In this document: positions 18,738-42,555 of the stretch, piece by piece
How the letters are laid out: the number at the start of each line of letters is the position of its first letter
Position numbering within the stretch: the first letter of the stretch is position 1
Assembly: GCA_022825235.1 (NCBI GenBank)
Contig: JAJDYI010000039.1
Coordinates: forward strand, 62,001-126,000
Source of the DNA: Alphaproteobacteria bacterium
Lineage (GTDB): Bacteria; Pseudomonadota; Alphaproteobacteria; TMED109
Length of the DNA: 64,000 nucleotides
Reading direction: 5' to 3'
The notes under the pieces: generated by a model
What the model was told of the DNA's origin: nothing
What the model saw: only the letters and a program-made list of their open reading frames with translations
Databases searched by the model: none
Translations under genes and position numbers: made by a program

Positions 18738-19052
18738 CCGCCTGAGCGTTCACGCATGCCGAGCAAGGCGGCAAGGGCCCGGGGGAGTTGGCAGCGTACG
18801 GACCGCCCGGCTGACGTCCGTGACCCGTCCGTGCCGGCAGCAGGCACCGAAGGGGCCTGTTTCTGTCCCTGCCGCCGACGGATGCTTGCGTTCCTTGGCC
18901 GCGCGCCAACGCCTCCGATCAACCGGTGTCGGTCATGGGGGTGATGTCGAACGGACGTGGGTGTCAAGGAACAACCTTCGTCACGACAGCGACACAACTT
19001 GACGGTAACACGCCGTGGGCCGGCCAATCGGCTCACGGCGTCACGGCTTAGG
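18738..19052. other. Gap of 315 bp, bamE to cysD, with leader stem-loop
   Basis: No convincing gene. The 3' part is the cysD leader and contains a strong inverted repeat at 19012-19039, listed separately. The rest holds only short frames of poor quality. Confidence 0.55.
19012..19039 (+). promoter_or_regulatory. Stem-loop in the cysD leader
   Basis: GCCGTGGGCCG and CGGCTCACGGC form an 11-base-pair stem (one G-U pair in RNA) around a 6-base loop. The stem ends 13 bases before the cysD ATG, so it would partly hide the ribosome binding region (AGG at 19050). It is not a recognised riboswitch, and a protein-binding dyad is equally possible. Confidence 0.45.
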
Positions 19053-19970
19053 ATGAGCATGCAGTTAGTACGGGATACCTCGTATCTGAAGGAGCTGGAG
19101 GCTGAAAGCATCAATATTTTCCGGGAAGTGGTTGCCGAAGCTAACAGTCCCGTCATGCTTTATTCGGTCGGCAAGGATTCGAGCGTCATGCTGCGCCTGG
19201 CGACGAAGGCGTTCTATCCGGCCAAGCCCCCATTCCCGCTGCTGCATGTTGATACAACCTGGAAGTTCCGGGAGGCGATAGCCTTTCGCGATCGCGTGGC
19301 CGAACAGGCGGACCTTGAGCTGATTGCGCACATCAATGAGGACGGCCTGCGGCGCGGAATCGGACCGCTCTCGCACGGTTCGCAGGTTCACACGGAGGTC
19401 ATGAAGAGCGAGGCGCTCAAGCAGGCCCTGGACAAGTACGGGTTCGACATGGCTTTTGGCGGAGCCCGGCGTGACGAGGAGAAGTCGCGGGCCAAGGAGC
19501 GGGTGCTGTCCTTCCGCGATGCCAAGCACCGCTGGAACCCGAGGGATCAGCGGCCCGAACTTCGCAACCTCTATAACTGCCGGCTCAATGCCGGCGAGAG
19601 TTTGCGCGCGTTTCCGCTTTCAAACTGGACTGAACTCGATATCTGGCGATACATCGCTTTGGAGCAGATCGACGTCGTGCCGCTCTATTTCGCGGCCTCC
19701 CGTCCCGTGGTCGAGCGGGACGGCCTGTTGATCATGGTGGATGACGACCGGCTGCCGATGCGGAAAGGGGAAACACCGTCACTCCGGCGCGTCCGGTTTA
19801 GAACGCTCGGCTGTTATCCCCTGACCGGAGCGGTCGAATCCGATGCCGAGACGGTGGCTGATGTCATTCAGGAATTGGAGGAGGGGCGATCGCTGGAGCG
19901 CAGTGGGCGCGCGATCGACCGTGACGAGGAAGGGTCGATGGAGCGCAAGAAGAGGGAGGGGTACTTCTGA
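19053..19970 (+). CDS. cysD: Sulfate adenylyltransferase subunit 2
   Basis: Catalytic ATP-sulfurylase subunit that makes adenosine 5'-phosphosulfate (APS) from sulfate and ATP. The 305-residue protein carries the PP-loop SVGKDSSVM from residue 38 and the conserved [15 protein letters not shown] and ELRNLYNCR blocks; the tail ends [10 protein letters not shown] as in most CysD. ATG 19053 is chosen over a longer frame from 18957. It overlaps cysNC by one base (TGATG). It serves sulfate activation, and no APS/PAPS reductase gene is present nearby. Confidence 0.95.
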
Positions 19971-21826
19971 TGCCCGCAACTTCCGCGCCCAGGGCCGGTC
20001 TCCTCCGATTTGTGACATGCGGCAGCGTCGACGACGGCAAGAGCACGCTGATCGGCCGGCTTCTGTGCGACGCCGGCTTGATTCCGGGTGACGAGTTGGC
20101 GCGGCTGCGCCCGCGAGCCCAGCAAAGCGGCAGCCACGAGATCGACTACGCGTGGCTGCTTGACGGCCTGCAGGCCGAGCGCGAGCAGCACATCACCATT
20201 GATGTTGCGTACCGCTACTTCTCGACCGACCGGCGGCGCTTCATCGTGGCGGATGCGCCGGGGCACGAGCAGTACACCCGAAACATGGCGACGGGAGCCT
20301 CGGCCTCCGATGCCGCGGTCGTCTTGGTCGACGCGCGCGAGGGATTGCTGGTGCAGACGCTGCGCCACAGTCACATTGCCTCGTTGTTCGGGATCCGGCA
20401 CATGGTGCTCGCCGTCAACAAGATGGACCTGGTCGACTACGCCGAAGACCGCTTCCGGGAAACCGCCGGCGCCTACCGCGCGGCCGTCGAACGCCTGGGG
20501 TTTGCGAGCATCGACTGCATCCCGGTGTCGGCACTGCACGGTCACAACCTTGCGCGGACGACCGACGCGATGCCCTGGTACGAAGGGCCCGCCCTGTTGC
20601 AGTGCCTGGAGGCGCTCCCGGTCAGTTCGACGATCGCGTCGTCAGCCTTCCGTTTCCCCGTCCAGTGGGTGAACCGACCGCATGCGGGCTTTCGCGGCTA
20701 TTGCGGCACGGTGGCGTCAGGCAAGATCCGGCCCGGCGACGAAGTCGTGATATCCCCCTCCGGAGACGTGAACCGTGTGTCGAGCATCGTCACGATGGAC
20801 GGGGAACAGGAGCTGGCCGTCGCGGGTGACGCGGTGACACTGCTCCTGGATGAGGAGAGGGATGTCAGCCGGGGCAATGTGATCGGGTCGGCTGATTCAC
20901 CGCCGGAGGTCAGCGACCAGTTTCGGGCGACCCTGCTGTGGATGGATGCAGAACCGATGCTCCCTGGCCGTGCCTACGAGATGAAGATCGGTACGCAGTC
21001 GACGATCGCGTCGATATCCGATCTTCGGTACGTGCTCGACGTGTCATTGTTTGAGCGCAAGGCGGCGAAGGTGCTTGAGCTCAACGGAATCGGCGTGTGC
21101 AACCTCGCGCTGAGCCAGGCTGTCGCTTACGACTCGCGACAGGCAGATGGAGCGGCGGGGTCGCGCTACATCCTGATCGACCGGTATTCGAAGCGAACGG
21201 TCGGGGCAGGTGCAATCGATTATGGACTGTCGCGTGCGCTCAACCTCGCCCCGCAGAACCTGCAGGTCGACAAGTCGGCCCGTGCCGGGCTGAAGAACCA
21301 GAAACCGTGCGTGCTCTGGTTTACAGGGCTCTCCGGTGCGGGAAAATCGACGATCGCCGATCTCACCGAGAAGAAACTGCACACCCTTGGTCTGCATACT
21401 CACGTGCTCGATGGCGACAATGTCCGCGCCGGATTGGGCCGGGACCTTGGTTTCACGGACGCTGACCGGGTCGAGAACATTCGCCGGATTTCGGAGGTCG
21501 CGGGGCTGTTCGTCGAGGCCGGCCTGATCGTCCTGGTGGCAGTCATCTCGCCATTCCGGAGTGAAAGAGAGATGGCGCGGTCGGTGGTGGACGAACAGGA
21601 ATTCCTGGAGATCTTCGTCGACACGCCGGTGTCCGTATGCGAGAGCAGGGATCCCAAGGGCCTGTATCGCAAGGCGCGCCGGGGTGAACTCTCGAACTTC
21701 ACGGGTATCGATTCGCCCTACGAGCCTCCGGAAGAGCCCGAACTACGCATCGACACGACCGAAGTTTCCGCTGAGGAAGCGGCCGACCAGGTGGTCCGAT
21801 TGCTTCGTGCCCGAGGCAGCGTTTGA
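19970..21826 (+). CDS. cysNC: Bifunctional CysN-CysC: ATP-sulfurylase GTPase plus APS kinase
   Basis: 618-residue fusion. Residues about 12-430 are the CysN GTPase with [17 protein letters not shown] and NKMDL; residues about 445-618 are APS kinase with a P-loop GLSGAGKS from residue 453 and the DGDNVRAGL and [14 protein letters not shown] motifs. Together with CysD it turns sulfate into PAPS, the donor used by sulfotransferases. A sulfotransferase domain lies in the swf locus less than 13 kb downstream. No reductive assimilation gene (cysH, cysI) is nearby. Confidence 0.95.
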
Positions 21827-22064: not shown

Positions 22065-23153
22065 TTATCCGTAGTAAGCGGCCCTCCCGGCGAGATACCC
22101 GAGGGCGCCGTAGGGCTGGAGTACCACCATACGGTCCCGGAACGTCTTCCAGCTGGCATAAGTCCGACGCGAGATGTCGTCCGCTGCCCCTGCCTCTTCC
22201 ACCACTTCGGCCGCGTGTTCGAGCATCGCCTGCAGGACCGGTTCCGGGAAGTGGCGTACAGAGACCCCGTGCTTGTTGATCAGCGCGTCGAGTGCGGCGG
22301 CATTCCCGTTCACGGTCTCCGCGTACATGCGCATGTTTTCCTCGCCTGCCGCCATGCGCACGATTGCCTGAAGATCGCCGGGAAGTGCATCGTAAGCGGC
22401 GCGGTTGACGGTCAGGGAAAGGCCCGGTCCCGGTTCGTGGACACCGGGCCCGTAGTAGTACTGGGCGATCTTGTAGAAGCCCATGGCGAGGTCGTTGTAC
22501 GGTCCCGCCCATTCGGTGGCATCGAGGACTCCCGCCTGGAGCGAGGGCAACACCTCGCCTCCTGACAGGTTGACGGTGACAACGCCGAGCCGGTTCAGCA
22601 CGTTCGCACCGAGACCCGGAATCCGCATCTTCAGCCCGTCCAGATCATCAATCGAGTTGATTTCCTTCCGGAACCAGCCCCCCATGTTGGGGCCGCCGGT
22701 GCCAGCCAGAAAACCGCGAATGCCGAAGTCGGCGTACAGCTCGTCCCACAAGGCCTGCCCACCGCCGTACTGAATCCAGGCGTTGTGCTCAGGCGGCGTC
22801 AACCCGCCAGGAACCGAACAAAAGAAGGGCATCGCACCGTGCTTCGCGACCCAGTAGTAGGGTGCGTCGTGGCAGCAGTGAGCGATGCCGTCGCGAACAG
22901 CGTCGAACGCCTCAAAGGCCGGAACGAGCTCCCCGGCGGCGTAGAGTTTGACGGTGAGGCGCCCGTCCGACATCTCGGTGATGGCGTCGGCGATCCGCTG
23001 CGCGCCCACACCTATGGCCGGCAGGTTGCGCGGCCAACATGTGACCATGCGCCACTCGATCTGGTCCTGGGAAATTGCCGGCGCAGGGAAAGTGCTGCCC
23101 AGCGCAGCCCCGGTGCTCGCGGCGGCGGCCTGCAGGAAACGTCTGCGTTTCAT
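22065..23153 (-). CDS. TRAP transporter binding protein, TakP-like
   Basis: Periplasmic solute-binding protein of the DctP/TakP family, 362 residues. The N-terminus MKRRRFLQAAAA is a Tat-type signal. Blocks such as MGGWFRKEINS, LKMRIPGLGANV, DATEWAGPYND and AQYYYGPG match the TakP group that binds 2-oxoacids. A strong AGGAGG lies before ATG 23153. No dctQ or dctM gene adjoins it, so it either uses permeases encoded elsewhere (for example those at 40727-42541) or is an orphan. Confidence 0.88.
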   Translation of the reverse strand: MKRRRFLQAAAASTGAALGSTFPAPAISQDQIEWRMVTCWPRNLPAIGVGAQRIADAITEMSDGRLTVKLYAAGELVPAFEAFDAVRDGIAHCCHDAPYYWVAKHGAMPFFCSVPGGLTPPEHNAWIQYGGGQALWDELYADFGIRGFLAGTGGPNMGGWFRKEINSIDDLDGLKMRIPGLGANVLNRLGVVTVNLSGGEVLPSLQAGVLDATEWAGPYNDLAMGFYKIAQYYYGPGVHEPGPGLSLTVNRAAYDALPGDLQAIVRMAAGEENMRMYAETVNGNAAALDALINKHGVSVRHFPEPVLQAMLEHAAEVVEEAGAADDISRRTYASWKTFRDRMVVLQPYGALGYLAGRAAYYG

Positions 23154-23276
23154 AACCTGTCCTCCTCTGCCGGCTGCTCGTGGTGGCGCGGGTTGTGCGG
23201 GGGCGCAAGCAGCAGGCATTGATGTCGCGAAGCAGTTGACGGCCGTTACGGTACACATTCTCGGCCTGCAGGAAAC
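23126..23276. repeat. Two copies of a 15-bp direct repeat
   Basis: CGGCCTGCAGGAAAC occurs at 23126-23140 (in the signal-peptide codons of the TakP-like gene) and again at 23262-23276 (upstream of it). The second copy also forms a small GCAGG-AAA-CCTGC hairpin. The function is unknown; the copies may be a remnant of a small duplication. Confidence 0.4.
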
Positions 23277-25555: not shown

Positions 25556-28500
25556 ATGAATTCACAGGAATTCAATTTCCCGGTTGCCATTACCGGGTAC
25601 AGCTACCGATTGCCTGGCGGCATCCACACCGACTCCGACTTCTGGAATTTGCTGAGCGAGCGCGAGATCGTTCAGGAACCCGTAACGGATCGCTACGGGA
25701 GAGGTTACCGGCCGATCGGCGGCTTTTCCGGACCGGGTCGGTTTGCCAGCCCTTACGAAGGCCTCATCCGCGACGACGAGGAGAAACTGTTCGATCGCGG
25801 CCTCTTCGGCCTGTCCCAAAGCGAAATGCTGTCGACGGATCCTCAGGTGAGGATGTTGCTGACATGCGCCTGGGAGGCGTTCGAGCACGTCGGCTGGGAT
25901 CTTCATTCGCTGCGCAACAGTGCGACGGGTGTCTTCATCGGGGCCCAAGTGCCGGCCGTCTCGAACTGGCGGCCGATGCGGGGCGCCCAGCCGTTCGACG
26001 TGACGAGCATCAGCCTGGCCATGCTCGCCAACCGCATCTCCTACCACTTCAACCTGATGGGGTCCTCGACAACCTACTGCACGGCGTGTTCGGCGAGCCT
26101 CACAGCTCTCCATGCGGCCATGAACGGCCTCCAGCGCGGCGACTGCGAGCAGGCGCTGGTCGGTTCTGTCAATTACCTGGGAACCGCCAGGCTGAGCGCC
26201 TCCTTCAACGCCCTGGAAGTCATCAGCCCCGACGGGAAGTGCCATTCCTTCGACGCGGAAGCCAACGGCTACATGCGTTCAGAGGGGGCGTTCGTCTTCG
26301 CCATCAAGCCGCTGGCGGCGGCCGAGCGTGACGGGGACCCCATCCACGCGGTCATCGAGGCTACCGCCGTCAATGCGGCCGGCGCTGCCGACGGAAGTGA
26401 GGGCCTGGCACCGGGGCGCTACATCACGGCGCCCACCCGTCATGCCCAAGCCGAGCTGATGCGAGTAGCGGGAACCCGCGCCGGCCGCGGGCCACAGGAA
26501 TTCGACTACATCGAAGCCCATGCCACCGGCACGGTTGTGGGGGATCGGATCGAAGGCAACGCCATCACGGACGCGTTTGCCGGACCCGAGCGGGAGGCCC
26601 CGCTGCGGATTGCCAGCGTCAAGAGCAACGTGGGGCACATGGAAGCCGCGGCGTTCCACTGTGCGCTGCTCAAGGTTCTCATGATGCTGCAGCGGCGGAC
26701 ATTCGCGCCGATCTCCAAGAACTTCGTGGTGCCCAATCCGGCGATCGATTTCGACCGCTGTCCCATGCAGGTGCAGACCAGCTGCGAGCCGTTCCCCGAG
26801 CACCCGGTGGTCGTGGGAATCAATTCGTTCGGCTTCGGCGGCGCCAATGGGCACTGTGTGGTCCGCGAGTACCGTCCGTCTCGGCCACGGATCTGGTCGG
26901 TGCCGCTGGCCCCGGAGTCCGGGGTCATGATCCCGTTGTCGGCCCGCACCGCCAGCACACTCACCGAGAGCGCGCGGCAGCTGCGAGACTTCCTCGCCGA
27001 GGAGGAACTCGATCTCTACACGCTGGCCGGCAATCTCAGCCGTCGCCGCACGCATTTCGCCGTGCGCACGTCGTTTGCGGTCCGGAGCCGAGAGGAACTG
27101 GTCGAGGCGCTCGAGGCCTTTGTGGAGAACCCGCCGCCCGTCGACCCGGTCGTCGATGGCAGGCGCCGCGTGGCGATGGTGTTTTCCGGTCAGGGCACGC
27201 AGTGGGCGGGGTGCGGTCGCGAACTGTATGACGCCGAGCCCGTGTTCCGCCGGGCCATCGATGCCGTCGAAGCGCATTGGCGCGAACATTCGGACATCTC
27301 GCTGCGCGAGGCTTGCTTCCGTGCGACGCAGACCGAGCTGAACGAGGTGCAGTTGGCGCAGCCGGTCATCTACATGATCCAGTGCGCCCTGGTGGAGCTG
27401 TTCAAGACCTGGGGCGTCTACCCGGATTGCGTGGTCGGCCACAGCTCGGGCGAGGTCGCAGCGGCGTACGCATGCGGCGCGTTGTCCCTGCGAGAAGCCA
27501 CGCGCCTGGTGTTTCATCGTGCCACGCTCCAACAGCGAACGGCCGGATCCGGTCGCATGCTGGCGATCGGCCTCGACCGTCCGGGGGTCGAGGACCTGCT
27601 GACGGAACTGGGGGTCGCCTTCGGCAGCGGGGAGGACGACGGCGACCGATCGACCCAGGTGGCGATCGCTTGTGAGAACGCCCCTGCCAACACCGTCATC
27701 TGCGGTCCGGAGGAAGCCCTGCAGCCGGTCATGGCGGCCTTGGACCACCGGCACCTGCAGAATCAGCTGCTGCCCGGCAACATCGCCTTCCATTCCGCCG
27801 CCATGCAACCCCTCAAGACCGATGCGCTGGCGGCGCTGTCGTTCCTGAACGATCTCGACTTTGATGCCGAAGTCCCGTTCGTGTCGTCGGTGACGGGGCA
27901 GCCAGAGCAGCGGCTGGACAACGCGTACTGGTGGTCAAATATCCGCCAGCCGGTGCGGTTCGCAGCCGCGATGCAAACGCTGATGCGCGAATGTCAGCCA
28001 AATGTGGTCTTGGAAATCGCGCCGCACTGCGCGCTTCAGTCCACCATCGCCCAGTGCTTGGAAAACAGCCGGTCGGTGCCTGCCTGCATTCCGACGCTGA
28101 CACGAGAGACGGACGTCCGCATCAGCTTTCAGACCGCTCTCGGCGCACTGTTCCAGGCGGGCGTGCCCTTGGACTTCGCGGCCCAGTATCCCCGTCCGCA
28201 GCCCGTCTCGGATCGGCTTCCCGGACATCCCCGGGAAGAGCGAGACACGATGGATCTCCACTGCGACAACGAGATGTTCGTCCGGCAGGGCGAATATTCA
28301 CAAGGACCACTGGTCGGCCACCGGGTCCCGTGTGAGCACCCGCAATTCGAAGCACGGCTGTCGGAGGCCGATTTCCCCTGGTTGGCGGACCACCGCGTGC
28401 ATCACGCGGCGATCATGCCTGCGGCGGGCTACATCGAGCTGATCCTCGAGGCCCTAGGCGGGGTTCCGGTCCACTTCGAGGCGCTCGAATTTCTTCAGCC

Positions 28501-31500
28501 GTGTCCGGTTCCCAAGGCGCCGGTGAGGCTGCAAACGGTCGTGCAGCCGATCCCGACGGATCCGGAGGAGTTCACGTTCACGATCTCCTCGCGTTCCTAC
28601 GAGGTCGACGCCAGGAGCGAGGTCCACTGCCGCGGGAAGGTGCGCGTGCTGAGCGGCGATCCGGCGCTCAGCGTGCCGGCCCGATTGACAGACATAGATA
28701 CCGATGGCTTCGAGGCGTCCATTCTCGCTGACGACCAGAATTTCTACGAGCGCCTGCAATCCGTCCTGAGCGAGACATTCCAGTACGGCCCGTATTTCAG
28801 GACGATCCGGCGTGTCTTGGTGGACAACCTGTCCAAGGCCTATCTGTTTGATGTCGAGATGGATGAGGGGCTGTGGGCGACAGGCACCGAGGAGGGCTAC
28901 GTCACCTGTCCTCCTCTGCTCGACGGCGGGCTGCAGATATTCCTGTATCACCTGTTGACCGCCGCCGATCTCTTTGCGATCCCGCAGCGGGCGGAAAAGG
29001 TGACGTTCTTGCGTCCGCCCACCGGCCCCCGCGTTACCTGCCATGTCACGAAGCCCAGCGACGACTGGATGAACGCCAATGAGCGGGGTCAGTACTCGGT
29101 TCGGCGCGGCGAGCGATCGGGCGGCAGCATCAGCTTCTACGACGGCGCCACCGGTGACCTCATCGCCCATATCGGCGAGTACACGTACTTCACGTCCAAC
29201 CCCCGTTGGAACGACTTGCCGAACAGCAAGCACCGGATTTGCTGGCAGCCGAAGGTCCTTCCCGCCGGACAGGAACTCATCGACAGGCTGCCGAGCGGAG
29301 AGCCAACGCCCGCGACGGTCATCGCGGCGCTGACCCACCCGGACACGGGCTCACGGTACGCCTGTCACATCGTGGAATTCGCCGGCTCCAGGGAGCCGGG
29401 TGAAACCATTCTTGAACAATGCGTTGCAGATCTCGCCCAGGCTGACGGGCAAAGTGAATTCTGGCTCGTGGGGGACAGTGACGAGAGTACCCAGGCCTAC
29501 TACCAGGCCTTCCACGCACACGACGTACCGCTTCGCTTCGCGACGTTCGACGTGGCGAACGCCCCGGCATTGGATGCCGGCCGGCTGCGGCGGGGCGCAG
29601 CTGAGATCATCTTCCTCCACCGGGAGGCCGCGGGCTTCGGGCCATGCGAATGGGAAACGGTACGAAGCCTGGCGGTGCCCGGCGCTTGGGTGCTGGTGCA
29701 GCACGACGAAGGCGATGTCGTCTCCACCGGTCCAGGCTGGCGAGCGGTTCGCGCCGGACCGCGCGCCACCTTGCTGCAAGCCCCCGGTCCGAACCGCGAG
29801 CAATCTGATGCCAGCGCGCTTCCCGGCCCCCGATGGGTATTGGGCGAGCCCGATAGCTGGGCCTCGGCCTGGTCGGCCCTATGCAAGCCGCATGACCATG
29901 TGCACCTGATCCCCGATGAAGCGTGGCTGACTGATCATCTGCATGCGCTCGACGACTGGCCGGAAGCCGCGAAAGTGCAGGCGGTGGACTACTTCTGCGG
30001 TCAGGATCCGGAGGATCCGACCGGGGAAAGAGCGGCATCCCGTTTCGTCGCGTTTGTCCAGGCCCTGGTCTCCTACCGGATCGAGCACGCGGACCGCCCG
30101 TGCCGATTGACCGTGATCACGCGCCGCGCCGTCCACGATGTGGAGGATGCGCGCGGTGGCGTGTTGTGGGGAGCGGTCCGCAGCATGGCCCTGGAAATCG
30201 ACGAGGAGGCGAAACTCGATTTCCGTCTGGTGGACCTCGGTGACCTGGACGATCTCCGGACGCTGCACTGGCTGATGTGCCACGACCTGCGTGAGCGCGA
30301 ATTGGCGGTGCGGAAGAGCGACCTCTGGGCCCCGCGAATGGTCAGTTACCGGGAGCGTTACGCGAGGGTACCGGCTGGCACCCAGCCGACGTACCGTTTG
30401 ACGCTCGACAATCCGGGGCAGATCAATGGCCTCGAGATGAAGACGTACGAGCTCCCGCCCCTGGGTCCGGATGACGTGGAGATCGACGTGGCTGCCGCTG
30501 CGCTCAACTTCCGGGACGTCATGGTCACACTGGGGCTCTTGCCGGCATTGGCGTACGAGCGCTCGGCGCTGGGGCACGAGGTCGGCATGGAGGGGAGCGG
30601 GTTCGTTCGTCGTGCCGGACGGGATGTCCAGCACTTCCGGCCCGGGGACAAGGTGGCCTTCATCCAGGGCGGCTGCATCGCAAATCGCGTGGTAGCCAAC
30701 CAATACCGCGTGTTCCGCAAACCCGATGGCCTCAACATGGACGAGGCCGCCTCGTCATTGTCGGTCTATGTCACGGCGTACTACGCACTGATCCACCTCG
30801 CCCGCCTGCGGCAGGGGGCGCGAGTCCTGATCCATTCGGCGATGGGGGGAGTGGGTCAGGCCGCCATCGCCCTGGCCAAGCACGTGGGGGCGGAGATCTA
30901 CGCCACCGCCGGGACCGATGGAAAGCGCACACAACTGCGGTCGCTTGGTGTGCGGGCAGCGTTTGATTCGCACAGTTACGACTGGCACGACGAACTGATG
31001 GCGGCGACGCGCGGTGAGGGCGTGGATGTCGTGCTGAACTCCCTGGCGGGACGCCATGTCCAATTGTGTCTCGAGGCGTTGCGCCCCGGCGGCTGGCTTT
31101 GCGAGATCGGCAAGGTCGACATCTACGCCGACCACGACCTCGGCCTGCGGGTGTTTCGCAAGAACCTGCGGTTCGCGGCCATCGACGTGGACCGGCTGAT
31201 GGCCGACGACCCCGCACTGGCGCGCGAGCTGTCGCTCGCCTGCCTGGACCTGATGGACGGCGGTGCCTTGCCGGCATTGCCAGTCACCGCATTTCCATAC
31301 GAAGACTTCGCGAAGGCCCTGCGGTTGATGACGACCGGCCAGCACCAGGGAAAGCTGGTCCTGCGGGCGCCGCAGGCCTCCGGTGCGCTAGACGCGCCGA
31401 TCGCGGACGTGCGGCCGCTGTTCGATCCGGCCGCCACCTACCTCGTGACGGGTGGCCAGGGCGGCTTTGGCCGCCGCCTGCTGCCGTACCTGGTGGCGTC

Positions 31501-32632
31501 GGGTGCGCGGCACCTCACCCTGATGGACCGCAATCCGGAGCGCGGTCGGGATGCCCGGTGGATCCGCCGGCACAGCGCCCTCGCCTACATGGATGAAGAC
31601 GTCGAATTCGACATCGTTGCGGGGGACGTGTCGGTTGAGGAAGACGTCCAGCGCTGTGTTGGCCAGGTCCAGCGGCCGCTCAAGGGCGTGTTTCATCTTG
31701 CCGGATCCCTCGACGACTGCTTGCTTGACGATCTTTCAGCCGAGTCCCTGGCATGCGTGTTTGCGCCCAAGGCCCGCGGTGCGCTCCACCTGCACCGGGC
31801 CACTGCGGACCACCCGCTTGACCATTTCGTGCTGTTCTCTTCGTCTGCCTCGGTTCTGGGTAACCCGGGCCAGATCAACTACAGCGCCGCCAACGCGTAT
31901 CTCGACGGCCTGGCGGCGAGCCGCCGCCGGGAGGGACTGCCGGGCCTTTCGTACAACATGGCCGCCGTCGCGGACGCCGGCATGGCCGCGCGCAGCCTCC
32001 CCGTGCTCCGCATGATGCGGGCGGCCGGCCTGCCGCCAATCAGCAGCGATTTCGCCGTTGCCAATCTGGACTTTGCGCTCCGCTCGACGGCCGGCTCGGA
32101 CCATCTCATCTCGGTGCTGTTCGAGCGCCCTTCGTGGACGGTAGAGTTCCCGGACTACATGCGCATTGGACGCCTGATGCGAAACCAGGATGCGTTTGAG
32201 GCCGGCACGGCCGGAGAGCGGACGCTCGAGAGCGTGGCGGCGCAGATCGCCGCGAAGGTGGCGGAGTTGTGCGGTCATGAGGAGGGCGGCGTCGAGGAGC
32301 CGCTGTCCAGCTTCGGCCTGACCTCGATCTCGGTTGCCGAGCTCGGAACATTTATCCAGACGCAGTTCAATTACCGGGTGAGTGCGCTTGAGCTCATGAC
32401 GACCGCCTCGGCGCTCTCGCTGGCGCAAGGAATCATTCACGGAAAGGATGAGGAGGAAGAGGCCTCATCCGATGAACCGACAGCGAAAGCAACGGACACG
32501 GCGCCAGTTTTCGTGGCAGGCGTTCAGCGGGCACCATCACGATTTGCCAGCGCGCCCGAGGATCACTTTCCTAGGGACGTTGATGTTGCTGTCGCGGAAT
32601 CGCCCCCGGTTCGCCTTGAGGCGGCGGGATAG
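25556..32632 (+). CDS. swfA: Monomodular type I PKS/FAS (KS-AT-DH-ER-KR-ACP)
   Basis: About 2,358 residues forming one fully reducing module. KS (about 7-435): Cys178 in YCTACSAS, His322 in AHATGT, His361 in NVGHMEAA. AT (about 543-835): GHSSG with Ser630 and an AFHS motif, predicting malonyl-CoA. DH (about 915-1220): His946 and Asp1123 in LLDGGLQ. ER (about 1615-1939) with SAMGGVGQA near 1760. KR (about 1960-2150): TGGQGGFG, an LDD motif (B-type) and Tyr2109 in NYSAANAY. ACP: Ser2257 in GLTS. An acidic disordered tail follows. There is no TE or methyltransferase domain with clear motifs; residues about 1230-1600 hold a degenerate linker. Domain order and partners match SwfA of sponge symbionts. 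ATG 25556 is preferred over TTG 25541. Product unknown. Confidence 0.9.
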   Translation: MNSQEFNFPVAITGYSYRLPGGIHTDSDFWNLLSEREIVQEPVTDRYGRGYRPIGGFSGPGRFASPYEGLIRDDEEKLFDRGLFGLSQSEMLSTDPQVRMLLTCAWEAFEHVGWDLHSLRNSATGVFIGAQVPAVSNWRPMRGAQPFDVTSISLAMLANRISYHFNLMGSSTTYCTACSASLTALHAAMNGLQRGDCEQALVGSVNYLGTARLSASFNALEVISPDGKCHSFDAEANGYMRSEGAFVFAIKPLAAAERDGDPIHAVIEATAVNAAGAADGSEGLAPGRYITAPTRHAQAELMRVAGTRAGRGPQEFDYIEAHATGTVVGDRIEGNAITDAFAGPEREAPLRIASVKSNVGHMEAAAFHCALLKVLMMLQRRTFAPISKNFVVPNPAIDFDRCPMQVQTSCEPFPEHPVVVGINSFGFGGANGHCVVREYRPSRPRIWSVPLAPESGVMIPLSARTASTLTESARQLRDFLAEEELDLYTLAGNLSRRRTHFAVRTSFAVRSREELVEALEAFVENPPPVDPVVDGRRRVAMVFSGQGTQWAGCGRELYDAEPVFRRAIDAVEAHWREHSDISLREACFRATQTELNEVQLAQPVIYMIQCALVELFKTWGVYPDCVVGHSSGEVAAAYACGALSLREATRLVFHRATLQQRTAGSGRMLAIGLDRPGVEDLLTELGVAFGSGEDDGDRSTQVAIACENAPANTVICGPEEALQPVMAALDHRHLQNQLLPGNIAFHSAAMQPLKTDALAALSFLNDLDFDAEVPFVSSVTGQPEQRLDNAYWWSNIRQPVRFAAAMQTLMRECQPNVVLEIAPHCALQSTIAQCLENSRSVPACIPTLTRETDVRISFQTALGALFQAGVPLDFAAQYPRPQPVSDRLPGHPREERDTMDLHCDNEMFVRQGEYSQGPLVGHRVPCEHPQFEARLSEADFPWLADHRVHHAAIMPAAGYIELILEALGGVPVHFEALEFLQPCPVPKAPVRLQTVVQPIPTDPEEFTFTISSRSYEVDARSEVHCRGKVRVLSGDPALSVPARLTDIDTDGFEASILADDQNFYERLQSVLSETFQYGPYFRTIRRVLVDNLSKAYLFDVEMDEGLWATGTEEGYVTCPPLLDGGLQIFLYHLLTAADLFAIPQRAEKVTFLRPPTGPRVTCHVTKPSDDWMNANERGQYSVRRGERSGGSISFYDGATGDLIAHIGEYTYFTSNPRWNDLPNSKHRICWQPKVLPAGQELIDRLPSGEPTPATVIAALTHPDTGSRYACHIVEFAGSREPGETILEQCVADLAQADGQSEFWLVGDSDESTQAYYQAFHAHDVPLRFATFDVANAPALDAGRLRRGAAEIIFLHREAAGFGPCEWETVRSLAVPGAWVLVQHDEGDVVSTGPGWRAVRAGPRATLLQAPGPNREQSDASALPGPRWVLGEPDSWASAWSALCKPHDHVHLIPDEAWLTDHLHALDDWPEAAKVQAVDYFCGQDPEDPTGERAASRFVAFVQALVSYRIEHADRPCRLTVITRRAVHDVEDARGGVLWGAVRSMALEIDEEAKLDFRLVDLGDLDDLRTLHWLMCHDLRERELAVRKSDLWAPRMVSYRERYARVPAGTQPTYRLTLDNPGQINGLEMKTYELPPLGPDDVEIDVAAAALNFRDVMVTLGLLPALAYERSALGHEVGMEGSGFVRRAGRDVQHFRPGDKVAFIQGGCIANRVVANQYRVFRKPDGLNMDEAASSLSVYVTAYYALIHLARLRQGARVLIHSAMGGVGQAAIALAKHVGAEIYATAGTDGKRTQLRSLGVRAAFDSHSYDWHDELMAATRGEGVDVVLNSLAGRHVQLCLEALRPGGWLCEIGKVDIYADHDLGLRVFRKNLRFAAIDVDRLMADDPALARELSLACLDLMDGGALPALPVTAFPYEDFAKALRLMTTGQHQGKLVLRAPQASGALDAPIADVRPLFDPAATYLVTGGQGGFGRRLLPYLVASGARHLTLMDRNPERGRDARWIRRHSALAYMDEDVEFDIVAGDVSVEEDVQRCVGQVQRPLKGVFHLAGSLDDCLLDDLSAESLACVFAPKARGALHLHRATADHPLDHFVLFSSSASVLGNPGQINYSAANAYLDGLAASRRREGLPGLSYNMAAVADAGMAARSLPVLRMMRAAGLPPISSDFAVANLDFALRSTAGSDHLISVLFERPSWTVEFPDYMRIGRLMRNQDAFEAGTAGERTLESVAAQIAAKVAELCGHEEGGVEEPLSSFGLTSISVAELGTFIQTQFNYRVSALELMTTASALSLAQGIIHGKDEEEEASSDEPTAKATDTAPVFVAGVQRAPSRFASAPEDHFPRDVDVAVAESPPVRLEAAG

Positions 32633-32646
32633 GGAGGGCCGTGGCC

Positions 32647-34389
32647 ATGCGGAACGCGCTCCTGATTTATCCGGAGCATCCCCCGACCTACTGGGGAGCG
32701 AACTTCGCGCTGGAAATCGCGGGAATCAAGGCGGCGTTTCCGCCATTGGGCCTCCTGACCATCGCGGCACTGTTTCCGCCGAAATACAGCCTCCGCGTCG
32801 TGGATCTGAACGTGGCCCCCCTGACCGATTCGGATCTGGAGTGGGCCGACATGGTGTTCACCTCCACCATGATCGTGCAGCGGGTTTCCCTTCAGACGGT
32901 CATCGATCGCTGCAATCGGGCAGGGGTCCCGGTCGTGGCCGGGGGGCCGCATCCCACCACGTTTCACGATGAGATCCACGGTGTCGATTACTTTGTCCTG
33001 GACGAAGCCGAAGAGACGTTCCCCCAATTTCTGCGCGACCTGGAGGACGGCACGCCCCGCAAGATGTATCGGGAACCGCGCAAACCGGACGTGAGCCGGA
33101 CGCCGATCCCGCGCTTCGACCTCATCGACATGAAGAGCTACCACTCGATGGGTGTTCAGTTCTCGCGCGGGTGCCCGTTTGACTGTGAATTCTGCGACAT
33201 CACCAAGCTCTACGGCCGGGTGCCGCGGACCAAATCGCCGGACCAGATGGTGCGCGAATTCGATGCGCTGTTCGAACTCGGCTGGCGGGGCCCGGTGTTC
33301 CTCGTCGACGACAACTTCATCGGCAACAAGCGCGACGCGTTGAACCTGCTGCCGGCACTGGCGGAGTGGCAACAGGCACGCGGATATCCGTTCCTCCTGT
33401 GCACCGAGGCGAGCTTGAACCTCGCACGCATGGATGACCTGATGGAAGCGATGATCTCCGCTGGCTTCGACACCGTCTTCCTGGGTATCGAGACCCCCAA
33501 CCCCAAGGCCCTGCTGAAGACGAAGAAGCCGCAAAATACGAGCAAGGAGGAAGAGAATTTCCTGTTTCAGGCGGTTCGCAGGATTCAGGACAAGGGGATG
33601 CAGGTGCAGGGCGGCTTCATCCTGGGTCTGGACGGGGACGACGAGAGCGTGTTCAACACCCAGATCGAGTTCATTCAGGCGACCGGGATTCCCGTGGCCC
33701 CGATCTATCTGCTTACGGCACTGAAGGGCACGGACATGTACAAGCGCCTGGAGGACGAGGGCCGGCTCCTTGACGTCGCAATCGGTACCCAGGCCACCAT
33801 TCTGAACTTCAGGACGGAGCTGGATCACCAGGTCCTGCTCGAGGGATATCGACACGTGACCACCACACTTTATGACCCGACGCTGGAGAATTATTTCGAG
33901 CGCTGCCTGACGCTGTTCGAGCACTGGAAGCCGGTTCCGCACCTGCACAAACCGAAGAGCAAGAACGCTGTGTTCACGGACCTGATGGGAGTGCGCGGAC
34001 GCCTCTCTCCAGAGCAGGTCCCGGCCTTCACGAAGTTTGTGGCGGAGGTGTCGAGAAGGCATCCCCGCATGCTTCCGAAGGCCATCCGGCTGGCGGCATT
34101 GGGTTACCACTTCGAAAAGATCACCCGCCAGCAGATTGCAATCCATGACTTCAAGGAATTTCTGGCGGAGGAACTGGAGTCCTTCAAAGAGGACGTAGCC
34201 GCTGGCGCACAACAGCCGGAGCACGTCGACGTGCGGCGACAGAGACTGTTCGCAGATGTCGATACCCGCTACCGGTCGATTCCGGGCGACTTCCGTTATC
34301 ACAGCGATGGAATTGACACCGCGTTGGACTCCTTTCGCGTGGCCATCAACGCGCAAGCTGCGGAGCAGGCCCGCTTGCCGGCGGCCTGA
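32647..34389 (+). CDS. swfC: B12-binding radical SAM protein, DUF4070 type
   Basis: 580 residues. The N-terminal part (about 1-140) is a cobalamin-binding fold with PPLGLLTIAAL and VVAGGPHPTTF. The radical SAM core follows with C176PFDC180EFC183, the CxxxCxxC cluster motif. The C-terminal part matches DUF4070. The same architecture occurs in HpnP hopanoid C-2 methylase, so methylation of an unactivated carbon is possible, but the substrate is unknown. It starts 14 bases after swfA with GGAGGG in front; ATG 32647 has the better spacing than GTG 32641. It corresponds to SwfC, and the order here is A-C-B. Confidence 0.85.
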   Translation: MRNALLIYPEHPPTYWGANFALEIAGIKAAFPPLGLLTIAALFPPKYSLRVVDLNVAPLTDSDLEWADMVFTSTMIVQRVSLQTVIDRCNRAGVPVVAGGPHPTTFHDEIHGVDYFVLDEAEETFPQFLRDLEDGTPRKMYREPRKPDVSRTPIPRFDLIDMKSYHSMGVQFSRGCPFDCEFCDITKLYGRVPRTKSPDQMVREFDALFELGWRGPVFLVDDNFIGNKRDALNLLPALAEWQQARGYPFLLCTEASLNLARMDDLMEAMISAGFDTVFLGIETPNPKALLKTKKPQNTSKEEENFLFQAVRRIQDKGMQVQGGFILGLDGDDESVFNTQIEFIQATGIPVAPIYLLTALKGTDMYKRLEDEGRLLDVAIGTQATILNFRTELDHQVLLEGYRHVTTTLYDPTLENYFERCLTLFEHWKPVPHLHKPKSKNAVFTDLMGVRGRLSPEQVPAFTKFVAEVSRRHPRMLPKAIRLAALGYHFEKITRQQIAIHDFKEFLAEELESFKEDVAAGAQQPEHVDVRRQRLFADVDTRYRSIPGDFRYHSDGIDTALDSFRVAINAQAAEQARLPAA

Positions 34390-34424
34390 GGAGCCGTCCG
34401 GCCACACATCCAGAGATCGAACGC

Positions 34425-36962
34425 ATGCCCGACCACGCTGTTGCAGACACGGCGGTGCCGCCGCTAACCGGGGTCCTGCCGCCTGACTGCCAACGAGATG
34501 TCGATGCGCTTCGCCGTTTCGTCCACGACGTCATCAGCGAGGAATCCCCGTCCGCAGCAGTCGCTCCGACGGACGTCAGAGAGGTGCTGCTGACCGGCGT
34601 GACCGGGTTCATCGGACGTTTCTTCCTGTGCGAACTCCTCCGGCAGAATCCGCACCTAGTCGTGCACTGTCTGGTCCGGGCCGAAGATTCGGAACACGGA
34701 ATCGATCGTGTTCGCGGCGCGTTGTCCGAGGCCGAGATTTGGGAAGACGCGTTCGAGCCTCGGATCCGCGCGATAGCCGGCGACATCGGGTTGCCGCAAT
34801 TCGGCCTTGACGATATCACATTTGACATTCTCTGCGAGCGACTTGACGCAATCTATCATCTTGCTGCCGACATCACGCTCTCGTCCTCCTATAAGGCCAT
34901 CCGTGATATCAACACGCTCAGCCTTCGCAACGTGCTGAGACTGTGCCTCCGGACGCGCTATAAGTATCTATTTTACGCGTCGTCAATGGGGGTGTTTCCG
35001 CAATACTTCTTTTCGTTCGCACATGAGTTCAAGCAGAGTCAGATCGGGCATCAAATGCAGCCGGATCTGACTTGCATGAAGCGTATGTTCCCGATCGGTT
35101 TGCTCGGTTATCCCTGGAGCAAACTGGTATCCGAGCAGGCCCTCCTGTTCGCCCAGCAGGCCGGCATGCCGTTGGCGATTTTCCGCCTCCCGCAAACCGG
35201 TCTGTCGAGTACAGGGTACACGCCGGCACACGACCTTTCGATAAAGATATTGGCGGCGGTCGGTGAAAGCGGGACCATGCCGAATGGTTTCTCGTTTCGT
35301 TCCAGCAACGAGGTGGTCGATACGGTGGCCCGGGTCTGCGTGGCCATATCCCTGAACGCCGAGCGGCGCTTCACGATCTACCAATGCTGCAATCCGGAAC
35401 TGGATCCTCACGACCTGGAACCGGCGGATTTCGGTTTGTACTGGCCCGAGGTTTCCTACCAGGCATTCAAGCGCGCGTGCCAGGCACGCGGGAAGGAATC
35501 ACCGCTGCACGGCCACTGGGCGGTGCTGGATCATTTCGGGAAGTACTGGTTCAGCCGGAACAAACCGGAAGACCGGCTCCCGATGTGTGACCGCGCCATC
35601 CGCGAGGACTGTCCCTTTCCGATCAAATGGATGGGCGCCCTGACCAAGCTACGGCGCTCGCACCGGTGGATTCGTGCGCACCGGGACGTCTGGCCATATT
35701 CGATCCATCAAAGCCGCCTCGACCTCGACGGGCTGATGAGCCGGGCGGCACGGTATGCGGAGGAAGAGGGGGTGGCGTTCGACGTCGCGTATCCCGCGTG
35801 GATGCGCGAGGGTCTGGAGCAATTCATCCGGGCCTTGCAGGGACCTGGAGTCAGGCTCCAGCAGGAGAAGCTGGCGGATACGGTCTACGGCCTGAGCCGC
35901 TTCCTGCGTGGCAATGCCGCGCTTGCCGGTGAACGGTGGCGACACCCGGAAATCGACCACGAAGAAGTTAGCCGGCCGGTGTTCATCGTGGGAATCAACC
36001 GCACCGGCACCACGTTCCTCCACCGCCTTCTGGCCCGGGATCCCCGATTCCGGGCGTTGCGGCAATACGAGTACATGGAGCCGGTGCTGCCGGGCGGCGA
36101 GTACGCGGCGGTTGGCGGCACTCCTGACGATTCCCGCCGGAAACGGACAGAGGAAGTCTTCCTAGCCTCCCGCTTCGCCGAAGTGTTCGCCGGGGTTCAC
36201 GATTTCGACGTGAATGAACCGGAAGAGGATTTCCCGATCTTCCGCATGACGTTCACGACATGGGTCTTCCTCGTCCAGTTCCGAATCCCAGGGTATGCCC
36301 GGTGGCTGGCCGAACGCGGATCCGAGGATGCCTATCGCTTCCATCGACGCACCATCCAGCACTTCAACTGGCAGCGTCGGCAGCGCTCTCCGGAGCACGG
36401 CGGGCAGTGGCTGCTCAAGATGCCCTTCCATCTCATGGAGCTCGATACCCTGATGGCGACCTATCCTGATGCCCTGTTCATTCAGACCCATCGGGAGCCG
36501 GCGCAATTCATGGGATCCTGGAGCAGCCTGGTGGAGCGGATTCGTTCGCTCAGCAATGAATCGGTTATTCGCTCTGAGCTTGGTTCCGAGCAGCTGTCGT
36601 TCATGAGCAAGATGCTTGACCGGGGAACGCGTTTCCGGGAGGCGCATCCCGAGCTGGAATCCCGCTGGGCGGACGTGGACTACCATGAACTGGTTCAGGA
36701 TCCCATGGCGGTGGTACGGGCTATCTACGGTCGGTTCGGGTGGCCCCTCACGCGGTCAGCCGAGAACGAGATGGTCGGTTGGCTGGACCGGCAGGCGGAA
36801 CGGCGGCGGCAGGAGCCTCGACACATATACCGCCTGGCGGATTACGGCCTTACTCCCGACGAAGTCGACGCTGCATTCGCGGGATACGCCAGGTTTCGCG
36901 CGACCAGAAGCTACGTGCACGATGTGGAGCCGACCCCGTCCGTCAGTCGGCAGGCGCGCTGA
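34425..36962 (+). CDS. swfB: Thioester reductase-sulfotransferase fusion
   Basis: 845 residues in two catalytic parts. Residues about 50-330 are an extended SDR/thioester-reductase domain: nucleotide motif TGVTGFIG from residue 57, YASSMG and the catalytic pair Tyr229-Lys233 in GYPWSKLVSE. Residues about 510-820 are a PAPS-dependent sulfotransferase (Sulfotransferase_3 type) with the phosphosulfate loop GINRTGTTF from residue 523, a later QTHREPAQF block and VDYHELVQDP. The middle 180 residues are a linker of unknown role. The reductase can free an acyl chain from the ACP as aldehyde or alcohol; the second domain can sulfate a hydroxyl. It matches SwfB. Start ATG 34425, 35 bases after swfC, with a weak ribosome site. 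Confidence 0.9.
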   Translation: MPDHAVADTAVPPLTGVLPPDCQRDVDALRRFVHDVISEESPSAAVAPTDVREVLLTGVTGFIGRFFLCELLRQNPHLVVHCLVRAEDSEHGIDRVRGALSEAEIWEDAFEPRIRAIAGDIGLPQFGLDDITFDILCERLDAIYHLAADITLSSSYKAIRDINTLSLRNVLRLCLRTRYKYLFYASSMGVFPQYFFSFAHEFKQSQIGHQMQPDLTCMKRMFPIGLLGYPWSKLVSEQALLFAQQAGMPLAIFRLPQTGLSSTGYTPAHDLSIKILAAVGESGTMPNGFSFRSSNEVVDTVARVCVAISLNAERRFTIYQCCNPELDPHDLEPADFGLYWPEVSYQAFKRACQARGKESPLHGHWAVLDHFGKYWFSRNKPEDRLPMCDRAIREDCPFPIKWMGALTKLRRSHRWIRAHRDVWPYSIHQSRLDLDGLMSRAARYAEEEGVAFDVAYPAWMREGLEQFIRALQGPGVRLQQEKLADTVYGLSRFLRGNAALAGERWRHPEIDHEEVSRPVFIVGINRTGTTFLHRLLARDPRFRALRQYEYMEPVLPGGEYAAVGGTPDDSRRKRTEEVFLASRFAEVFAGVHDFDVNEPEEDFPIFRMTFTTWVFLVQFRIPGYARWLAERGSEDAYRFHRRTIQHFNWQRRQRSPEHGGQWLLKMPFHLMELDTLMATYPDALFIQTHREPAQFMGSWSSLVERIRSLSNESVIRSELGSEQLSFMSKMLDRGTRFREAHPELESRWADVDYHELVQDPMAVVRAIYGRFGWPLTRSAENEMVGWLDRQAERRRQEPRHIYRLADYGLTPDEVDAAFAGYARFRATRSYVHDVEPTPSVSRQAR

Positions 36963-37318: not shown

Positions 37319-38560
37319 TTGGCAGTTTCGATCGATTACGCGGCGCTGCTGGCGCCCGACCTCCCGGCACCTGCTCCCGGCTGGCAGGGCCGCCCGCCCT
37401 ACAATTTCATTGGCGGCCACGTCGATGCGGCCAGCGTGCCGGTCGAGGACATGATCGCGGCAACCGCGACGGCTCTACGGCGGGACGGAGCCACGCTGTC
37501 CACCTACGGCCTGGAGAGCGGCCCGCTTGGTTATCGGCCGCTCCGCGAGTTTGTCGCCGCCAAACTCAAGAAGCGCAGTGGCCTGTCGGTCTCACCGGAC
37601 GAGGTCCTGATCACTTCCGGCTCCATACAGGCGCTCGAGCTTGTCTATCAACTCCTTTGCTGTCCCGGCGATACGGTCCTGGTCGAACAGTTCACCTATG
37701 CGGGCACGCTCAGCCGGCTCCGCGGTCTCGGCGTGAACCCGGTCGGCATCTCGCTCGACGAGAGCGGCATGCGTGCGGATCTGCTGGCTGCGAAGCTGGC
37801 CGAGCTCAAGGCCCAGGGGATCCGGCCGAAATTCATCTACGTCATCCCGACGATCCAGAATCCCGACGGCAGCATCATGCCCGAAGGGCGCCGCGCGGAG
37901 CTGCTGCAGGTATCGGCCGAATACGGGGTGCCGATCTTCGAGGACGAGTGCTACGCGGATCTCCTGTGGAACGGCGAGCGTCCGCCCGCCATCGCGGCCA
38001 TGGATGAGGGTCGACAGGTCATCCACTGCGGCTCGTTCTCGAAGACCATCGCGCCGGCTCTACGGGTCGGCTACATCATCGCCGAGCCCGGCTTGGTCGC
38101 GCAGATCGCTGCCTGCAAGGAAGACGGGGGCACCGGGGCGCTCGAGCAGATGATGCTGTCCGAGTACTGCTGGAGCCACTTCGACGACCATGTCGACAAG
38201 GTCACCCTGCTGCTCAAGGAAAAGCTCAACGTAATGACCGAGGCGCTGGAAGAGCACTTCGGAACGACGGCCGAATTCACGGCGCCACCTGGCGGAATCT
38301 TCCTGTGGGTCTCCTTCCCGGACGCCGTGGACGCCATGAAGCTGGCATCTGCCGCCGCAGCCAGGGGAGTGGCGATCAACCCCGGCCCCGATTGGTCCGC
38401 TGATGCTGCGCCCGCGCGCTCGCGGATCCGCCTGTGCTTCGGGAACCCCACCCACCAGGCCATTCGGGATGGCGTGAAGGTGCTTGCCGAAGTCTGCCAC
38501 GAGGAGTTCGGCGTCCCGGTGCGAAGCGGGAATATCGAGCGGAACAGCCAGTCGAACTGA
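37319..38560 (+). CDS. PLP-dependent aminotransferase, fold type I
   Basis: 413 residues. The PLP lysine lies in SFSKTIAPALRVGY, the cofactor Tyr/Asp region in FIYVIPTIQNPDG and FEDECYADLLW, and the substrate Arg near SRIRLCFG. The sequence resembles 2-aminoadipate/multi-substrate aminotransferases (the MocR-like C-terminal group without the DNA-binding domain). TTG start with AAGGAGG 8 bases upstream. It follows swfB after a stem-loop and 356 bp, so it is probably not in the same transcript. Substrate unknown. Confidence 0.85.
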   Translation: MAVSIDYAALLAPDLPAPAPGWQGRPPYNFIGGHVDAASVPVEDMIAATATALRRDGATLSTYGLESGPLGYRPLREFVAAKLKKRSGLSVSPDEVLITSGSIQALELVYQLLCCPGDTVLVEQFTYAGTLSRLRGLGVNPVGISLDESGMRADLLAAKLAELKAQGIRPKFIYVIPTIQNPDGSIMPEGRRAELLQVSAEYGVPIFEDECYADLLWNGERPPAIAAMDEGRQVIHCGSFSKTIAPALRVGYIIAEPGLVAQIAACKEDGGTGALEQMMLSEYCWSHFDDHVDKVTLLLKEKLNVMTEALEEHFGTTAEFTAPPGGIFLWVSFPDAVDAMKLASAAAARGVAINPGPDWSADAAPARSRIRLCFGNPTHQAIRDGVKVLAEVCHEEFGVPVRSGNIERNSQSN

Positions 38561-39877: not shown

Positions 39878-40288
39878 CTAGCGGTGCGGCACGGTCGGCC
39901 GACCCTCGGCGATCCACTGCAGGATGCCCTCGTGCACGTTGTAGACGCGCTGGTATCCAAGACGCTCGCTCAGGAGGCGGCTCACCGCTGCACTGCGCCC
40001 GCCGCTCCGGCAGATCAGCACGATGGGCTTATCGGAAGCCGCGATCGGCACGATCGCTGCCATCCACGCGCGGACGTCATAGCGTCCTTCCTCATCGAAG
40101 AAGGTCTGGAGGTGGCTGCCTTCGATGACGCCGGTCTGTATCCACTCGTCGGGCCTTCGGATGTCGATGACGGCGACCCCGTTCGACAACAGCTGTTCGA
40201 GCGTGGCGTTGCCGATATCGGATACCTCGGCGCGAGCAGGGGTACTGATGGCTAGGGTCAAGACGACGAGGAGTGCCAGTTTCAGCAT
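39878..40288 (-). CDS. Secreted rhodanese-domain protein
   Basis: 136 residues: an N-terminal signal peptide ending near ARAEV and one rhodanese domain. The catalytic loop is CRSGGRS with the active Cys, preceded by VIDIRRPDEW and followed by the helix NVHEGILQWIAEGRP. It probably transfers sulfur or handles thiols in the periplasm; the exact substrate is unknown. It is about 100 bp from the convergent GST gene. Confidence 0.88.
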   Translation of the reverse strand: MLKLALLVVLTLAISTPARAEVSDIGNATLEQLLSNGVAVIDIRRPDEWIQTGVIEGSHLQTFFDEEGRYDVRAWMAAIVPIAASDKPIVLICRSGGRSAAVSRLLSERLGYQRVYNVHEGILQWIAEGRPTVPHR

Positions 40289-40726
40289 CGGAACATCCCC
40301 GGGGGATCGAGTCGAATGCGCAGGTCCAGCCTACCGCACTTGCGGGTCGGGCAGCGAAGCGGCACCCATCCAGCCTGGGCACCACTTGGGGTAGGGGGCC
40401 AAGTCGCACGTGCGGAAGCGCATGAACGAAGTGCGTGGAGCCATTCCGACCCCCAGCCTCTCTGTCTCTCCGGCGCCAAAAGACTGGGCCGTTCAACGTT
40501 CCAGTCTGGGCGCGAACTGCCTTGGTGAGACGTGCTCGAATACCTGCCTGGAAGATCAAGGACGGCAGGTTCGACTCGAGTCTCGGACGCACGATCTTTC
40601 TTACGGTTGGGATGGTGTGGTAGGGCCGGATCGAGCCCGAGGCGCGGGAGTAACGAGCTTTGCAGTGCGTCAACTGAGCTGCCGGACGAAGCCGGGACGG
40701 CGCGGTGGCAGCATCGACCCCTCGAA
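40289..40726. other. Gap of 438 bp between the rhodanese and dctM genes
   Basis: No protein gene recognised. ACCTGCC (40541-40547) and GGCAGGT (40564-40570) could form a 7-base-pair stem with a 16-base loop on either strand, possibly after dctM. A tRNA-like CCA end was checked and rejected. Confidence 0.5.
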
Positions 40727-42022: not shown

Positions 42023-42031
42023 GGTGCGCCG

Positions 42032-42541
42032 TCAGACCTCGCTGTGAGGCTGGTCGCCTCCGAGGAGCTCGGGCGAGTGAAAGCTCCCGACCACCGTGGC
42101 CAGCGCCTGCAGGACGATCAGCGTCAATCCAACGACGACCGGTCCCTGCAGCAGCCACATCGGCAGTTCCAGCGTGGTGTCCGTGGTCTGCCCGATGTCG
42201 ATCGAGAACTGCATCAGTTCGATCCCGTACCAGGCCGAGATCCCGGTCACCGCACCGATCGCCAGCAGTACCAGACGCGACAGCCACATTTGCACCGGCG
42301 GTGGAAGATAGGCCGTGAGGACGGTGATCCGGATGTGCTCGCGCCGTCCGACGAGCCACGCCGACGCCAGGAAGACCCCGTAGATCTGCAGTACTCGCGC
42401 GGTTTCCTCGACCCAGCTGGTCGGCGCCAGAAAGGCATGCCGCATGGCGACTTCATAGAAGACGATGAGGCCGATCACCGCGAACAGGGCCGCGGCGACG
42501 ACCGCCGCAACCTGGGTCAAGCGATTGATCAGGAGGAGCAC
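42032..42541 (-). CDS. dctQ: TRAP transporter small permease DctQ
   Basis: 169 residues with four membrane segments, a YEVAMRHAFLAPTSWVEETARVLQ block and a REHIRI segment typical of DctQ. GTG 42541 is in frame and 14 bases after the dctP stop; a CTG overlapping that stop is an alternative. It partners with DctM 9 bp downstream. A much longer frame extends upstream through dctP and is antisense noise. Confidence 0.85.
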   Translation of the reverse strand: MLLLINRLTQVAAVVAAALFAVIGLIVFYEVAMRHAFLAPTSWVEETARVLQIYGVFLASAWLVGRREHIRITVLTAYLPPPVQMWLSRLVLLAIGAVTGISAWYGIELMQFSIDIGQTTDTTLELPMWLLQGPVVVGLTLIVLQALATVVGSFHSPELLGGDQPHSEV

Positions 42542-42555
42542 GCGTGGGGGCGCCG

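Follow-up and report, generated by a model that had tools for sequence, protein, structure and literature searches.

Sequence evidence supports the assignment of a three-gene locus in an alphaproteobacterial genome (G000, 3.85 Mb) to swf, a known, uncharacterised family, as an additional member. We tentatively propose, with slightly less than even confidence, that swfA-swfC-swfB is a lipid-building operon in which iterative synthesis would be followed by reductive release, sulfation and dedicated export, through a membrane-fusion-protein (MFP)/RND pump, of a sulfated fatty-alcohol-like lipid. We infer release, sulfation and export from domains, conservation and co-occurrence. The window, meaning the whole stretch of DNA that was analysed (G000:C6:62001-126000; 64,000 nucleotides), holds the three genes at the following positions:

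25556..32632, + strand: swfA, KS-AT-DH-(psiMT-psiKR)-ER-KR-ACP synthase, 2358 aa
32641..34389, + strand: swfC, B12-binding radical SAM enzyme; likely start ATG 32647
34425..36962, + strand: swfB, thioester reductase (R) and sulfotransferase (ST) fusion, 845 aa

All three are uninterrupted open reading frames (ORFs) on the same strand, with intergenic gaps of 8 and 35 bp. swfC was called from GTG 32641, and the in-frame ATG at 32647 agrees better with homologues. The original prediction described three genes in the order A-C-B within housekeeping synteny; the ORFs were indeed found intact, flanked by lgt, plsX, methionyl-tRNA synthetase, a class II tRNA synthetase and the DNA polymerase III alpha subunit. 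Their contiguity is independently supported by three other assembled species that share the intact genes, their order and their place, and by G005, which has one frameshift in swfA. Among congeners, dN/dS was 0.14-0.16 for swfA, 0.07-0.08 for swfC and 0.15 for swfB, which indicates that the swf genes are under purifying selection. Components of TRAP-type (DctP/Q/M) transporters lie on the minus strand on either side of swf (window 40092-43641 and 22065-23258).

The swf family was described by Della Sala et al. in 2013, who defined SwfA by its architecture, its KS motifs (DPQ[IV]R, HATGT) and its AT motifs (FSGQGTQW, QCALVEL, GHSSGE, IAFH), SwfB as a fusion of R with ST, and SwfC by CX3CX2C within a B12/radical SAM layout (PMC3908369). 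The domain order of the window SwfA, KS-AT-DH-ER-KR-ACP over 2358 aa, matches this description of a protein of about 2350 aa. Its KS carries DPQVR and HATGT as the family definition requires, the DPQ(I/V)R position varying (M, L) in some SwfA relatives, and all four AT motifs are present. In SwfC, CX3CX2C occurs as CPFDCEFC alongside Pfam B12-binding and Radical_SAM domains, and SwfB combines Pfam NAD_binding_4 with Sulfotransfer_3. The motif test discriminates, because the other type I PKS of the same genome has the ordinary DPQQR, HGTGT and GHSLGE. Every testable published sequence signature is present, protein lengths included, so the proposed match to the swf family holds; describing the locus as an undescribed biosynthetic system was too strong, as the family dates from 2013 (PMC3908369).

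The window locus resembles the 2013 swf clusters in its three genes, their near-identical lengths, the SwfA motifs, the R+ST fusion and the B12 radical SAM protein, and its order A-C-B is that of POR_0547-0550. It differs from them in its place among syntenic housekeeping genes on an assembled contig of an alphaproteobacterium, in a psiMT-psiKR insert and in a pump encoded elsewhere. From its description in the literature, sup (SupA) is likened to swf as another monomodular synthase family of sponge symbionts.

SwfA comprises the following domains:

25580..26875, + strand: KS domain; Cys in CTACSAS, HATGT and SNVGH intact; DPQVR
27179..28162, + strand: AT domain; GHSSGE, IAFH, QCALVEL
28307..29086, + strand: DH domain; HRVHHAAIMP, LLDGGLQ
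29300..29788, + strand: predicted C-methyltransferase fold, degenerate (SwfA about 1249-1411); VEFAGSREP as SAM motif I
29804..30355, + strand: predicted structural (psi) ketoreductase fold (SwfA about 1417-1600)
30410..31369, + strand: ER domain (Pfam)
31433..31972, + strand: KR domain; LDD motif; S-Y-N catalytic residues
32243..32428, + strand: ACP domain; attachment serine in GLTSIS

KS, AT, DH, ER, KR and ACP were all detected by Pfam, and the sequence shows SwfA to be a single, complete reducing module whose active sites are intact. Catalytic residues are kept in every domain in view across divergent swf members, which bears out the claim that they are intact in the window. The DH-ER interval (SwfA 1181-1640) was modelled with a mean pLDDT of 70.6, higher in the core. 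Using Foldseek and VIA-align, we found that the model matches the CMeT/psi-KR region of LovB, PsoA and FAS as well as KR structural subdomains; it also matches isolated PKS C-methyltransferases (DszA, Z 16.9; citrinin, Z 16.5). The predicted structure thus places a degenerate methyltransferase fold and a structural KR between DH and ER, a feature that is new relative to the 2013 description, which gives SwfA solely as KS-AT-DH-ER-KR-ACP (PMC3908369). The methyltransferase fold is probably inactive, because its SAM motif I is degenerate. Mycocerosic acid synthase (MAS), mammalian FAS and LovB-type synthases share the domain order and single reducing module of SwfA, and MAS and FAS are among the solved structures nearest to it, at moderate identity. 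Unlike these, SwfA terminates at the ACP, and release is presumably performed by a separate reductase.

Two domains were delimited in SwfB:

34590..35414, + strand: reductase domain; TGxTGxxG, YxxxK
35799..36890, + strand: sulfotransferase domain, Stf1/Stf9-like; GINRTGTT PAPS loop (SwfB residues 523-530); R690/S698

The R domain is nearest to the terminal R domains of MxaA and of a Streptomyces PKS. The ST is nearest, by sequence and by fold, to mycobacterial Stf1 (2zq5) and Stf9 (2z6v), the closest solved relatives, which are stand-alone proteins, whereas the SwfB ST is fused to an R domain. The ST resembles Stf1/Stf9 and not the curacin/olefin-synthase type. The full-length SwfB model has low confidence in the R half, and our structural argument is confined to the ST match. 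R and ST occur in a single protein in every swf member having the full gene. A PKS ending in ACP-TE-sulfotransferase is encoded on a Planktothrix agardhii plasmid (L127, NZ_LR882953.1, 1-6077), where it adjoins an iron-containing alcohol dehydrogenase; its ST is 31% identical to that of SwfB.

SwfC may be a methyltransferase, a candidate activity suggested by family resemblance. We considered whether SwfC is optional in swf, as the L014 locus lacks swfC, and rejected this: a second swf cluster, on another contig of the L014 genome, comprises partial swfA, swfC, swfB, MFP and RND. A second, divergent SwfC-like radical SAM protein (58%) is found in a Bryobacterales genome (L070 7463-12169), next to an ORF that matches both GPP34 and P450. 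SwfC-like B12 radical SAM proteins also occur on IMG/VR contigs L116-L119 (39-40% identity over 490 residues).

In the pathway that we propose, an Sfp-type PPTase from another part of the genome would prime the ACP of SwfA, which would act iteratively on malonyl-CoA to leave a mostly saturated acyl chain on the ACP. If the chain carries a methyl branch, SwfC would have introduced it at an unactivated carbon; we assign this step to SwfC because the in-line methyltransferase of SwfA is degenerate. The R domain of SwfB would free the chain by NADPH reduction as an aldehyde or alcohol, and its ST would use PAPS to sulfate a hydroxyl, yielding a sulfated fatty-alcohol-like lipid. A dedicated MFP/RND pump, unlinked to swf in the window genome (G000:C66), would export the product.

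Reductive release and O-sulfation are favoured over sulfation-driven decarboxylation because the ST is nearest to Stf1/Stf9, thioesterase (TE) is absent and the R domain is MxaA-like. Decarboxylation would proceed as in curacin and olefin synthases, the ST sulfating a beta-hydroxyacyl-ACP and so driving formation of a terminal alkene. CurM and the Synechococcus olefin synthase do have PKS-associated PAPS sulfotransferases, as swf does, and the Planktothrix PKS has the corresponding ACP-TE-ST ending. However, Pfam detected no thioesterase in the Swf proteins, so that the ST-then-TE arrangement of this type is missing; the SwfB ST matches the fold of Stf1 (TM 0.85, normalised to target length) much more closely than that of the olefin-synthase ST (0.52) or the CurM ST (0.47), and an R domain would be superfluous. 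We hold terminal alkene formation to be very improbable. An unlikely but less far-fetched route would have the ST transfer sulfate to a hydroxyl or amine, either of a different acceptor or of the chain, with R freeing an aldehyde or a heterocycle, to give a sulfated metabolite and not an alkyl sulfate. R domains are able to stop at the aldehyde (PMC3908369), an Stf1/Stf9-like fold carries no acceptor information, and the KR could leave hydroxyls in some cycles; yet the R-ST fusion in every full-gene member is most simply read as sequential action on the released terminus. There remains the reading of SwfA as a WcbR/RkpA-type synthase for the lipid part of a capsular polysaccharide, to which we give hardly any credence. 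POR_0547/0548 were first annotated as WcbR/RkpA-type (PMC3908369) and a glycosyltransferase-like ORF lies at 60727 in the window, but no capsule biosynthesis or export cluster was found among the flanking genes examined, which have housekeeping and transport roles, and the SwfA KS motifs are unlike those published for WcbR/RkpA.

Among GTDB representatives, a homologue search yielded SwfA relatives at 15 loci (64-94% identity, most full-length) with the same gene neighbours. They sit in metagenome-assembled genomes (MAGs) of Bryobacterales/Terriglobia and another acidobacterium, Nitrospira and several Alphaproteobacteria. swfB lies beside swfA wherever the contig extends past swfA, and swfC nearly always does too; these relatives and their recurrent adjacency exclude chance. 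A-C-B is the commonest order, one locus having swfC inverted upstream and one lacking swfC locally. A stop or frameshift interrupts swfA in L022 and L018, possibly through assembly error. swf is widespread in high-microbial-abundance sponges, and we infer a sponge origin for the related MAGs. In a tree of SwfA relatives from MAGs, the Alphaproteobacteria are split: L017 joins the Bryobacterales/Terriglobia clade as a neighbour with strong support, L014 branches deeply, and the genus of the window stands apart from both. This scatter indicates transfer of swf between phyla. Viruses and plasmids were rejected as carriers, as IMG/VR yielded only distant SwfC relatives (best 39-51%) and no plasmid record spans most of SwfB.

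The source organisms of swf had yet to be settled in 2014 (PMC4245539). Later work assigned swf-like clusters to Nitrospirota, Latescibacterota and Acidobacteriota (PMC9426513) as well as to Tectomicrobia (PMC10227082). With these two studies swf already had a genomic context, to which the window adds housekeeping synteny. Our search of the open-licence literature found no earlier report of swf in an alphaproteobacterial genome; reports elsewhere are possible.

Within the window genus, swf occupies one fixed site in five of seven species (G000, G001, G002, G005 and G006), between the following genes:

16157-18037: TPP enzyme
37319-38560: aminotransferase

The syntenic site of G004 keeps only a sulfotransferase fragment, SwfB residues 567-836, without the PAPS loop, and reads as a deletion relic. 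swf was not found in the G003 genome, where the contig ends ~600 bp past the aminotransferase at the expected site. Of all genomes in the genus, those of these two congeners are the smallest.

A likely PAPS source for the cell lies upstream of swf in the window:

18957..21826, + strand: cysD and cysNC, APS/PAPS synthesis

Within the genus, this pair lies 4 kb upstream of swf only in G000 and G006, and we rejected PAPS genes as part of the swf operon since the adjacency is not conserved. CysNC occurs once in each genome of the genus, and G003, although it has no swf, encodes a 92% orthologue at another location; the adjacency in the window may thus be incidental. Nitrospira independently has CysNC beside swf. 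Concerning ACP priming, E. coli ACPS fails to load the SwfA ACP (PMC3908369). G000 encodes a second, longer PPTase of Sfp type beside its other PKS, and this PPTase is present in all congeners except G003. The other type I PKS (G000:C1:52265-63018) has an open frame of about 3500 aa with two KS domains; it and the adjoining PPTase are present across the genus, both missing in G003.

Clustering of the ORFs that flank swf loci revealed a recurrent pair, an MFP of 360-430 aa, three of the four tested having HlyD_3, and an RND protein of the AcrB family, about 1050 aa long. The pair adjoins swf in L010, L011, L016, L017, L020 (where the contig end truncates the RND), L021 and L022 and lies downstream in L067, and the contig end of L009 holds the start of an MFP. 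It is found next to swf in most relatives whose flanks are informative, in Acidobacteriota and several alphaproteobacterial lineages, its order and orientation relative to swf varying among lineages. The pump RND of G000 (G000:C66:18832-21996) is unlinked to swf and 64% identical to the L017 pump, against 31% for the next best RND of this genome. All these pumps fall into a single clade, whose long stem has full support. The two Nitrospira genomes had no pump of this type at the threshold used. A short G001 contig (L083 1-3878) carries a second pump copy nearest to Terriglobia pumps, from contamination or recent transfer.

The pump is intact in all five swf-bearing species of the window genus. 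It is absent from the G004 genome although its neighbour genes are present, and in G003 the pump at the same site is broken over at least two frames. G004 groups with swf-bearing G002 and G003 stands on a separate long branch; as the two are not sisters, the joint absences of swf and pump look independent. Across the class, an even sample of 385 alphaproteobacterial genomes, with SwfC as the swf marker, had the pump in 4/4 SwfC-positive (69% identity or more) and 4/381 SwfC-negative genomes (p 8e-8 counting genomes, 1.6e-4 counting genera). By that marker, the pump is not restricted to swf carriers, since these four SwfC-negative genomes have it; they belong to two genera (G223/G316/G393 and G401). 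L100, L101, L102 and L103, from alphaproteobacterial genomes in which no SwfC was detected, hold a swf-type pump.

The association might instead reflect shared mobility or a symbiont lifestyle and not function, with swf and pump travelling alike and being lost together in genome reduction. The SwfA and pump trees both mix phyla, the swf-less congeners are those with the smallest genomes, and some genomes have the pump without SwfC. Set against this, swf and pump are adjacent in several lineages with differing order and orientation, and they co-occur in the window genus though unlinked; we judge an association through shared mobility or lifestyle to be quite improbable. In the part of the open-licence literature that we could consult, no mention was found of an RND pump or of the psiMT-psiKR region for swf, and earlier reports may exist elsewhere.

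No swf-specific compound was obtained when PS11G3 was expressed heterologously (PMC3908369), in keeping with the remark in the original prediction that the product had still to be found, and none has been reported since 2013 in the literature found. We suggest, somewhat more cautiously than for the operon itself, that swf could be a five-component synthesis-and-export system (SwfA, SwfC, SwfB, MFP and a specific RND), exchanged among symbiont phyla, which would secrete a sulfated, possibly radical-SAM-methylated lipid; the pump would be useless without the synthase and would decay upon swf loss. Our results point to transfer of swf across phyla and add Alphaproteobacteria to its known carriers, with one genus that holds the cluster at a fixed site and has lost it in at least one species. 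The candidate exporter offers one possible reason why expression of A+B+C in E. coli may have shown no product, and it directs the search for that product to extracellular sulfated lipids.
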